Shown piece after piece: positions 185-8,012 of a DNA stretch of 22,200 bases (the stretch's first letter is position 1; every line of letters begins with the position of its first letter). This DNA is from a virus: positions 1 to 22,200 of IMG/VR virus record IMGVR_UViG_3300024343_000125, one strand, 5' to 3'. A program made the translations under genes and the position numbers. Under the pieces are notes generated by a model. That model was not told the DNA's origin. It saw nothing but the letters and a program-made list of their open reading frames with translations, and did no database searches.

Positions 185-211
185 TTTATATCCTTTCGTT
201 GATATGTGATT

Positions 212-626: not shown

Positions 627-652
627 AAAAAAAATCCCAGCATAAGCTGGGA
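627..652 (-). terminator. rho-independent terminator of the small RNA
   Basis: Minus-strand stem of 7 bp (TCCCAGC with GCTGGGA, loop of 4) followed directly by eight T. Confidence 0.85.
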
Positions 653-760
653 ATGTAAAGGCTGCTAGAGTCTACCAACGAAAGTAAAAAGCTCTGCCTT
701 ATTTAACGACTAGGGAAACCTAATAGCCGCACCTCTACTTATAAGAAGGCCCCTGGGCCT
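627..760 (-). ncRNA. probable small RNA with anti-leader loop
   Basis: No open frame fits here, yet the stretch has an extended -10 box TGGTATAAT (767-775) at one end and a textbook rho-independent terminator at the other. The predicted RNA opens with a hairpin (AGGCC-4 nt-GGCCT, 747-760). A second weak hairpin and a long imperfect one at 658-700 follow: 5 bp, a 4-nt bulge, 4 bp, a 3-nt bulge, 5 bp, and an 8-nt loop UUUCGUUG at 676-683. A pair in the inner stem is G-U on the minus strand but C-A on the plus strand, which supports minus-strand RNA. The loop and closing bases complement CAACGAAA, the ribosome binding region of many early leaders in this window (11 continuous pairs with the leader of the gene starting at 4771). 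A trans-acting regulator is the natural guess. It could instead be the 3' untranslated part of the operon ending at 768. Confidence 0.55.
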
Positions 761-766
761 ACTTAA

Positions 767-775
767 ATTATACCA
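767..775 (-). promoter_or_regulatory. extended -10 promoter TGGTATAAT
   Basis: TGG immediately before TATAAT. It overlaps the stop codon of the gene at 768-1133 and predicts a start near 760 for the small RNA. No -35 box is visible. The same extended box stands at 9391 and, as TGGTAGAAT, at 13745 and 15743. Confidence 0.5.
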
Positions 776-1133
776 TAACTAGTCGACTGTATTTTTGTAC
801 AAAATCGGCTAATGATAAACTAAATACTTCTGTGGTTAGGTCCTCTTCAAACAATGTAAATGTTTTAGCGGTCCAGTTAATTACAGGAATTTTGTGCTCG
901 TTGTCTAGAATTCTATCAACGCTTAAGCCCCAGCCTGTTTCAGACTTCCAGTCTTCTCCAATTAGATTAGAGATAGCAATACGTGTGGCATATGATTCAT
1001 CCTGCCACCTTGGCTCTGCAGCACTTACAGCGCTAGCCAAGTTTGCTAACATCTCATGGCCCGCCCAGTGCCCGTACAAAAAGATTGTGTTGCCGTCAGA
1101 TTGCTTGAATCCGAAGTTTGCTCTGTCTCCCAT
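768..1133 (-). CDS. conserved actinophage-type protein of unknown function
   Basis: A 121-residue soluble protein beginning MGDRANFGFKQSDG, with YGHWAGHEML near residue 20, YATRIAISNLIG near residue 48 and DNEHKIPVINW near residue 77. I recognise this pattern from conserved hypothetical proteins of actinobacteriophages; no function is established. It is the last gene of a five-gene operon (from 2363 down to 768) and starts one base after the stop of the gene above it. The TATAAT of the small-RNA promoter overlaps its stop codon. Confidence 0.8.
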   Translation of the reverse strand: MGDRANFGFKQSDGNTIFLYGHWAGHEMLANLASAVSAAEPRWQDESYATRIAISNLIGEDWKSETGWGLSVDRILDNEHKIPVINWTAKTFTLFEEDLTTEVFSLSLADFVQKYSRLVMV

Positions 1134-2159: not shown

Positions 2160-2363
2160 TTGTTCCTCTTTCGTTTGGTTTGAAGGTGCAATTGTAGCAT
2201 GCTCCACTGACACCAAGGTGGTCTTACGGCCACACGGGCATGTGAGTTCTGTCACACCTGATGGGAATCCGAACCCATCAGATGATGTTAGTTCTATTAA
2301 GCAATCGCATTCATCTGGGTCGCAGACAAATGTATATTTAGATGATACTAGTTCGTTGGTCAT
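1701..2363 (-). CDS. two-part protein: N-terminal zinc ribbon, acidic C-terminal part; leaderless
   Basis: A 220-residue protein. Residues 1-60 carry a cysteine cluster CDPDECDC (about residues 14-21) and CPCGR (about 42-46), a plausible single zinc ribbon. Residues 69-220 form an acidic domain with a helical stretch (TTLQSKINTVKDIITEAYAD) and a Thr/Asp-rich end. The function is not recognised. The start at 2363 is chosen because the -10 box TACAAT at 2370-2375 is exactly 6 bases upstream, which makes the mRNA leaderless; an open reading to 2396 lies above the promoter. A second promoter and ribosome binding site inside the gene predict a shorter product from 2159 in the same frame. It is first in the operon down to 768. 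Confidence 0.65.
   Translation of the reverse strand: MTNELVSSKYTFVCDPDECDCLIELTSSDGFGFPSGVTELTCPCGRKTTLVSVEHATIAPSNQTKEEQMESTVTTSPIPDTYNPNLLVTYKVIRGYSDAEYATDKVASLEWDLHNGRQSQKNVTTLQSKINTVKDIITEAYADSDDQDTLRAIAEALGIELVREVLFTATLEVSGTYTYNILDSDYELDLDSEVTDALYADSNNGNITIDDTEVCHVREA
2191..2212 (-). promoter_or_regulatory. TGTCAG-N10-TACAAT promoter inside a gene
   Basis: TGTCAG at 2207-2212 and TACAAT at 2191-2196 (with TGC before it, so extended), 10 bp apart. It lies within the coding region of 1701-2363 and points at the in-frame start at 2159. Confidence 0.65.
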
Positions 2364-3603: not shown

Positions 3604-3630
3604 TTTTTACCTTTCGTTAGATTAGTTGCA

Positions 3631-3652: not shown

Positions 3653-3690
3653 TTATCAATAGTTAGATGCAATATATCCCAATTGATCCA

Positions 3691-3706
3691 TGTGATCAAT
3701 CTCACA
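3691..3706. promoter_or_regulatory. CRP/GlxR-like operator
   Basis: Perfect TGTGA-N6-TCACA, centred 67.5 bp upstream of the -10 box at 3631-3636. It overlaps a second inverted repeat (ATTGATC with GATCAAT, 3682-3700). Confidence 0.65.
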
Positions 3707-3718
3707 ATTTTCCAGGAG

Positions 3719-3750
3719 TTTTCCACAGCCTGCCGTAAGCCTGTGGATAA
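3719..3750. promoter_or_regulatory. inverted pair of DnaA boxes
   Basis: TGTGGATAA at 3742-3750 is the complement of the consensus DnaA box TTATCCACA. TTTTCCACA at 3719-3727, one mismatch, faces it. Together they form a hairpin with a 7-bp stem. They could bind host DnaA as a regulatory or replication site, or be only a hairpin. Confidence 0.5.
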
Positions 3751-3771
3751 CCCCGCAGCTTTGTGGGCATT

Positions 3772-3777
3772 GTCGAC
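3772..3777. other. GTCGAC in a 12-bp palindrome
   Basis: ATTGTCGACAAT is a perfect palindrome at 3769-3780. A near copy stands at 2462-2472 in the same relative place, just outside a GCCCACA/GCCCGCA hairpin. It may be a protein site; no known owner. Confidence 0.3.
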
Positions 3778-3781
3778 AATT

Positions 3782-3805
3782 GGGGCGGGAATAGGATCCC
3801 GCCCC
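3782..3805. terminator. strong GC hairpin terminator without T-run
   Basis: GGGGCGGGA pairs with TCCCGCCCC around 6 bases, just below the stop of the gene at 3811-4038. No T-run follows on the minus strand, but hairpins of this shape are used as terminators in actinobacteria. Confidence 0.6.
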
Positions 3806-4290: not shown

Positions 4291-4354
4291 TTTATTACCT
4301 TTCGTTAGTTGGTTGGTTGAGTAGTTTAGCGACATACTCAGGTCGTTGTATTAG

Positions 4355-4771: not shown

Positions 4772-4806
4772 TTGGTATTACCTTTCGTTGGTTAGTTTGT
4801 TTGAGT

Positions 4807-5697: not shown

Positions 5698-5726
5698 TTG
5701 TTACCTTTCGTTGTTGGAATAAGAGT

Positions 5727-5781: not shown

Positions 5782-5797
5782 TGTGAAATTAATCACA
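5782..5797. promoter_or_regulatory. CRP/GlxR-like operator
   Basis: Perfect TGTGA-N6-TCACA with AAA/TTT flanks, centred 62.5 bp upstream of the -10 box at 5727. Confidence 0.65.
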
Positions 5798-5810
5798 AAA
5801 TTTCAGGGGT

Positions 5811-5839
5811 TGTGGATAACCTCCCATAATTGTGGATAA
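5811..5839. promoter_or_regulatory. two consensus DnaA boxes
   Basis: TGTGGATAA at 5811-5819 and 5831-5839, both the exact complement of TTATCCACA, in the same direction and 20 bp apart (two helical turns). Confidence 0.55.
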
Positions 5840-5889
5840 CCCCCCACAGCTTTGCGGGCACCTGATCATTTTGTCAAGTCGACACGCCG

Positions 5890-7093: not shown

Positions 7094-7125
7094 AAGTTGT
7101 CACCTTTCGTTTGTTGAATAATGGA

Positions 7126-7147: not shown

Positions 7148-7194
7148 TTTTCCAATTCTGCAAGGGTTTGTCTCAATATGTGGAGCGTGGGTTT

Positions 7195-7210
7195 TGTGAT
7201 TAATCTCACA
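7195..7210. promoter_or_regulatory. CRP/GlxR-like operator
   Basis: Perfect TGTGA-N6-TCACA, centred 76.5 bp upstream of the -10 box at 7126, followed by AAATTCCAGGG as at the other sites. Confidence 0.65.
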
Positions 7211-7242
7211 AAATTCCAGGGTGTTTTTTATCACACTCTTAA

Positions 7243-7301
7243 CGACACGCCCGACGCCGCAGCTTTTGTGGGCGCATCGACTTTTGTCAAGTCGACACGC
7301 C
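7243..7301. repeat. CGACACGCC repeats around a hairpin
   Basis: The 9-mer CGACACGCC stands at 7243-7251 and 7293-7301, with an imperfect CCGCA...TGTGG hairpin between. The right-hand copy is part of a longer stretch (TTTTGTCAAGTCGACACGCC) that is repeated exactly at 5869-5888. Another 9-mer copy is at 8043-8051. Confidence 0.55.
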
Positions 7302-7977: not shown

Positions 7978-8012
7978 TATCTGTTCTTCTTTCGTTAGTA
8001 GTTATAGTAGGA

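Follow-up and report, generated by a model that had tools for sequence, protein, structure and literature searches.

A 22.2-kb virus record (IMG/VR IMGVR_UViG_3300024343_000125, positions 1 to 22,200; this whole stretch is referred to here as the window) carries on its minus strand a predicted gene for a structured small RNA, which is probably a phage-encoded, trans-acting antisense RNA that occludes the Shine-Dalgarno (SD) sequences of the early regulon and turns down 8-14 early genes together. The RNA would fold as a three-way junction exposing the loop CUUUCGUU(G), and this loop would pair with the leader word AACGAAAG, overlapping the SD of the short early leaders. The duplex would block 30S binding, so that a single RNA would lower 8-14 early genes jointly, probably as infection exits the early phase. 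From the sequence we infer that the RNA is synthesized, that it pairs in the cell, that its effect is repression and not activation, and when it acts; the predicted pairing of loop and leader is itself well supported. A preliminary description of this DNA had pointed to the same locus, and its observation is confirmed, while its interpretation is supported within the limits of sequence evidence.

Complementarity of the loop to the early leaders

The window has nine copies of the word AACGAAAG, compared with 0.7 expected, and 0 of 100 shuffled windows get to nine. Eight copies are on the minus strand, each directly upstream of a start; the remaining one, read on the plus strand, corresponds to the RNA loop. 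The preliminary description had placed the complement of the loop before eight early starts; AACGAAAG is found at every one of them (Table 1), the longest match is at the leader where it had been reported, and the layout of one loop facing eight minus-strand leaders holds. The 11-nucleotide (nt) segment of the whole RNA that pairs best with the leaders is CUUUCGUUGGU, which is the loop, and none of 1000 shuffled loops equals it. When the pairing was re-run with composition-matched nulls, the z score was -5.9. The late genes had been expected to escape, and this also holds: most of the late plus-strand leaders have AGGAG-type sites, with pairing energies of -3.7 to -7.9 kcal/mol, compared with -10 to -17 kcal/mol for the targets. 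Four early-side genes (5082, 8234, 8492 and 6636) are without the full leader motif.

The element TGTC(A/G)G, about 10 nt upstream of the -10 box (often TGCTANAAT), is common to the promoters before 193, 2168, 3611, 4782, 5705, 7104 and 7989. These promoters, which serve seven of the eight target leaders, probably form a phage-specific early promoter class. The promoter of the RNA has neither this element nor a TTGACA-like -35 region; since TGTC(A/G)G is absent from it, we would guess that the timing of the RNA is separate from that of the early genes.

The same arrangement is seen across the relatives. In the RNA-bearing contigs there are 826 unique copies of AACGAAAG, of which 723 are leaders, 86 correspond to the loop of the RNA, read from the opposite strand, and 17 lie elsewhere. 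The leader copies are 6-15 nt ahead of an open frame, nearly all at 7-11 nt, and 88% of AACGAAAG copies are in leader position, compared with 26-47% for control words of similar composition. The distance from the motif to the start varies less than that from the motif to the -10 box (standard deviations of 1.4 and 4.6), so the motif is tied to translation and not to the promoter. About 14 nt separate the motif from the -10 box upstream of it, so that short leaders are predicted. Eight of the larger records from IMG/VR, 19-117 kb in length, have 9-14 copies of the motif on one strand, and the copy that lies on the opposite strand in their early region falls at the RNA locus; two of these records have one extra opposite copy elsewhere.

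The leader word extends past the SD. AAC precedes GAAAG in 57, 60 and 42% of the GAAAG leaders in three large loop groups. The 16S rRNA of actinobacteria, the most likely hosts (see below), ends with CCUCCUUUCU, and the AAC of the leaders is therefore unexplained by 16S pairing. With a host 16S tail ending in CCUUUCGUU, AACGAAAGG would be no more than an ordinary SD. This option was set aside: the matches listed are nearly all from Alphaproteobacteria, with no actinobacterium among them, although this is not decisive.

The context of the loop differs between groups, being UACUUUCGUUGGUA in A1, UUCUUUCGUUGGAA in A2, CCUUUCGUU within a larger loop in B and UUCCUUUCGUUGAGG in C. In groups B and C, where the loop reaches over the SD, GGAA is present in 52% of AAC leaders compared with 12% in group A (p 9e-15, although the contigs are interrelated and p-values overstate their independence); in leaders without AAC it rises only from 12% in group A to 28% in groups B and C. 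For A1 and B the mean duplex energies fit this pattern: the leaders of A1 give -14.0 with their own loop and -13.2 with that of B, while the B leaders give -14.7 with the B loop and -13.4 with the A1 loop. The long C loop is the best pairer with the leaders of every group, and duplex energies are no clean test for C. The flanks of loop and leader thus shift together, while no parallel change of the 8-nt core in RNA and leaders was observed. By motif counts, strand layout and flank shifts, the leaders are retained alongside the loop in the relatives.

The RNA gene, its fold and its surroundings

The preliminary description gave this locus as a gene-free stretch read from the minus strand and framed by a promoter-like box, four hairpins and a strong terminator, and all of these parts are found. 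The hairpins are the 5' hairpin, P2 (730-706), P3 (697-664) and the terminator hairpin, and 627-760 contains no open reading frame of at least 50 amino acids. The RNA is predicted to start at about 760, downstream of the -10 box. Judged by sequence alone, this is a discrete RNA gene with its own promoter and terminator, each retained in most relatives. The minimum free energy of the fold is -49.1 kcal/mol, compared with -36.4 ± 3.8 kcal/mol for shuffles, 2 of 200 being equally low. The P3 loop has the 8 nt assigned to it earlier, though an additional U-G pair in the single-sequence minimum-energy fold shrinks it (683-676) to 6 nt. The RNA matches no family among the Rfam covariance models (CMs), C4 and 6C included, either at the gathering score or at E 10; the top sub-threshold scores, for NsiR1 (20.9 of 39 bits) and MicX (18.9 of 75), are largely driven by the terminator.

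IMG/VR was scanned twice by protein and once by pattern, which yielded 144 loci, and nhmmer detects the RNA in 137 of them, the window's own locus included. After exclusion of the window and of 13 loci retrieved by the loop itself, the RNA is present in 123 of 131 loci, several of which share contigs; the eight misses were not individually checked. A further IMG/VR scan that used only the junction and P1 sequences, with the loop left free, recovered the known groups plus new ones. There are about 79 distinct cores (82 strings, three of them double-counted), and all but one hold CUUUCGUU while the closing stems and the loop size vary.

The RNAalifold consensus of 58 representatives is a three-way junction made up of P1, P2, an A-rich joining stretch (UAARUAAA) and P3. 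When three outer P1 pairs are added to this structure, 93.8% of cells are paired and eight pairs are changed on both sides. Double-changed cells number 151, compared with 53.5 ± 5.3 in shuffled alignments and 9-42 in slid structures. In related phages the loop is conserved and the stem covaries. Two of the outer pairs of P1 are weak, those at columns 6 and 7, which are unpaired in 25 and 15 sequences, and the P3 loop of group B is misplaced in the alignment, for which reason the loop was assessed on raw sequences. Conservation is highest at the junction nucleotides. Within columns 50-54 of the A1 alignment, the nucleotide that follows P2 varies in concert with one in the junction stretch (GCTAAG / GTTAAA), which suggests a tertiary pair.

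Table 1. Features of the predicted small RNA and its candidate target leaders in the window
Feature	Position	Strand	Remarks
whole predicted small RNA, ~134 nt	627..760	-	promoter, terminator, fold z -3.3, conservation
extended -10 promoter TATGGTATAAT	767..777	-	sequence; kept upstream of the RNA in relatives
5' hairpin	742..765	-	fold; in most relatives, missing from the GCCCCT subgroup
three-way junction core	656..737	-	P1 737-731/662-656, P2 730-725/711-706, J2/3 705-698, P3 697-664
P3 loop UUUCGUUG, candidate antisense seed	676..683	-	family-invariant core is CUUUCGUU at 684-677
intrinsic terminator	627..652	-	fold; CCCAGC hairpin (652-635) and T8 (634-627)
target leader AACGAAAG	193..200	-	before start 184
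target leader AACGAAAG	2168..2175	-	before start 2159
target leader AACGAAAG	3611..3618	-	before start 3603 (DUF932 gene)
target leader AACGAAAG	4299..4306	-	before start 4290
target leader ACCAACGAAAG	4782..4792	-	before start 4771; longest match, 11 bp, -16.7 kcal/mol
target leader AACGAAAG	5705..5712	-	before start 5697
target leader AACGAAAG	7104..7111	-	before start 7093
target leader AACGAAAG	7989..7996	-	before start 7977

Early-type genes in the left part of the window run leftward and other genes in the right part run rightward; the RNA locus sits in the gene-free gap between genes 768-1133 and 220-561. The DUF932 protein has named relatives in the ~130-kb Streptomyces cluster BE phages, and the protein encoded at 768-1133 has them both there and in the lake phage DSL-LC01. 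Judging by these relatives, the phage most likely infects an actinobacterium. Among freshwater actinobacteria, the Nanopelagicales have phages that were isolated (PMC10202952). BLASTN with the whole window and with the RNA gave no match among named phages. A relation of the RNA to tmRNA was considered, as the tmRNA of Karimac follows a homolog of the 768-1133 gene, yet ARAGORN and Rfam detect no tmRNA in the window.

Directly past the RNA terminator, at 585-625 on the minus strand, relatives conserve GCCCGCAAAAG-n-GAGGGTA(T/G)CATA-n-TTTTACG, where no gene is visible. A repeated intergenic element with CCAGGG, TTGYGGGC and GTCGAC lies at 540-625, 2395-2470, 3690-3790, 5790-5885 and 7190-7285 of the window, and the DnaA-box-like GTGGATAA is present at two of these places.

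Scaffold and leader apart, and alternative explanations

A homolog in a 21-kb contig (L187, E 1e-11) has a different P3 loop, and neither AACGAAAG nor, elsewhere in the contig, any complement of note to its own loop is present. A distant homolog (L204:8768-8855, CM E 2e-7) belongs to another phage, which encodes UDG-PolA and an SNF2 helicase. There the word GATTAGAA, immediately upstream of the next start codon, is the complement of the P3 loop UUCUAAUC, an arrangement that may be a cis version. The Streptomyces cluster BE phages have an unannotated three-way-junction RNA beside the DUF932 gene, in the terminal repeat (L265:770-843 in Samisti12, L269 and L274-L283), with an invariant loop GGUCGG and an invariant 3' tail ACCUUUCAAU. 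It resembles the window RNA in its three-way layout, in P2 (CCCUAUCAGUC...GGC.AGGG) and in J2/3 (UUAAAUA), but it differs in its P3 loop, (A/U)GGUCGG, and the CM E value is only 0.2-0.4. In DSL-LC01 (OQ999401), the region 24015-43360 has twenty copies of ACGAAAGGA, on one strand only; those inspected are leaders (often CGACGAAAGGACAA) past TATAATNGAATCA-type promoters.

Some of these observations, like the relatedness of the contigs, weigh against an antisense role. The duplexes are short, with eight clean pairs each, and in one subgroup of relatives a terminator is not evident. No convincing leader complement was found for the BE loop or tail, the best segments falling inside stems. Since these homologs have another loop and no leader partner was found, the scaffold may do something else too. 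In DSL-LC01, a distant relative that retains ACGAAAGG leaders, CGAAAGG is present 24 times on one strand and 0 times on the other, the inspected copies being mostly leaders before a start, while the genome has no antisense copy and, by CM search, no such RNA. The leader motif is therefore not retained solely for the RNA and has a role of its own. Taken together, the DSL-LC01 and BE cases indicate that scaffold and leader word can exist apart, although they are matched in the freshwater group.

It could be that the core has another function, with a protein or a host RNA as partner, and that P3 is exchangeable, the loop here acting as an anti-SD mimic on ribosomes or host mRNAs and not on the phage's own leaders. 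The strong conservation of the junction, the similar P2 and J2/3 of Streptomyces phages with another loop, and the other loops of the L187 and L204 homologs would all suit such a role. Since the loop also fits the leader-specific AAC besides the SD, and the flanks of loop and leader shift together, we consider it unlikely. A quite unlikely possibility is that the RNA pairs with the leaders yet protects or activates them, covering short 5' ends against decay or recruiting a factor, so that the early genes stay on. The pairing evidence is identical for this proposal, and the short predicted leaders would suit it, but the duplex spans the SD 7-11 nt from the start, which normally blocks initiation.

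The location of the motif downstream of conserved early promoters, and the similar motif in DSL-LC01 with no antisense copy, might instead mean that AACGAAAG is recognized as DNA or by a protein, in which case the RNA gene would simply contain one site more and no RNA-RNA pairing would take place. This is very improbable, as the spacing is fixed to the start codon and not to the promoter, and the one copy on the opposite strand sits in the loop that caps a covarying stem, a place that it keeps as stems and loop size vary. Chance complementarity of an unrelated structured RNA is hardly credible: even though an 8-mer is short, the shuffled loops and windows, the fixation of the loop in the cores, its opposite-strand copy in the large records and the concerted flank shifts all disfavour it. 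An antisense RNA directed at the early leaders is consistent with a structure supported by compensatory changes and with a conserved unpaired seed complementary to the SD regions of mRNAs encoded elsewhere.

Relation to known RNAs and implications

The proposed mode of action would be of a known type, though the RNA itself appears to lie outside the Rfam families. The C4 RNA of phages P1 and P7, about 77 nt long, is structured and blocks the translation of a phage mRNA, its loops being the complement of the region where ribosomes bind (reviewed in PMC12197685). The window RNA is likewise phage-encoded and structured, with a loop predicted to face ribosome-binding sites. Unlike C4, which targets the ant mRNA, it finds its target word in 8-14 separate early leaders, it lacks a C4 match even at E 10, and its three-way-junction fold is not of a known family. 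The 6C/B11 small RNA of Actinobacteria is a stem-loop RNA with loops that pair with the 5'-UTRs of many mRNAs, and for B11 compensatory changes of loop and UTR restore repression (PMC10470900). The window RNA shares with it a loop predicted to be directed at many 5'-UTRs, but 6C/B11 is host-encoded and uses C-rich loops against G tracts, while the RNA described here is viral, its leader word extends past the SD and it has no Rfam 6C match.

A similar layout is found in the start-associated sequences (SAS) of Cluster K mycobacteriophages, in different phages and with a different sequence and fold. The SAS leader repeat is GGGATAGGAGCCC and the leader word here is AACGAAAG, so the likeness is in layout alone. 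In Anaya (JF704106, L287:31730-31960), the single SAS site of opposite orientation caps an intergenic hairpin: it forms the apical loop, CCUCCUAUCC, which is antisense to GGGATAGGAG. The loop is kept in Yunkel11, Adephagia, Peanam and Enkosi (L290-L294 being among the K loci compared) and imperfect in Hammy, Tierra and Cain; in SirPhilip and Oscar it is absent from the aligned place while SAS copies are retained. The opposite SAS site of ZoeJ was rejected as an antisense loop, being just the leader of its minus-strand gene 40. Because loops are imperfect or lost where SAS are kept, an antisense link in Cluster K is a lead and not a proof.

On a broader reading, which is unlikely, there would be a large class of actinophage RNAs with one three-way-junction scaffold and an exchangeable P3 loop tuned to the leader of each phage's own early regulon. 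The design of one loop for many leaders would have arisen independently in Cluster K, explaining SAS, the function of which has been open since 2011. If the antisense role is true, a whole early regulon would be under post-transcriptional control by one RNA and one shared leader word, with no protein repressor. It would provide a concrete reason for some phages to retain leader sequence longer than the SD, a question posed by the SAS of Cluster K. Abundant freshwater phages would also gain an RNA family that has so far gone unannotated, one with a likely relative among the well-studied Streptomyces phages.
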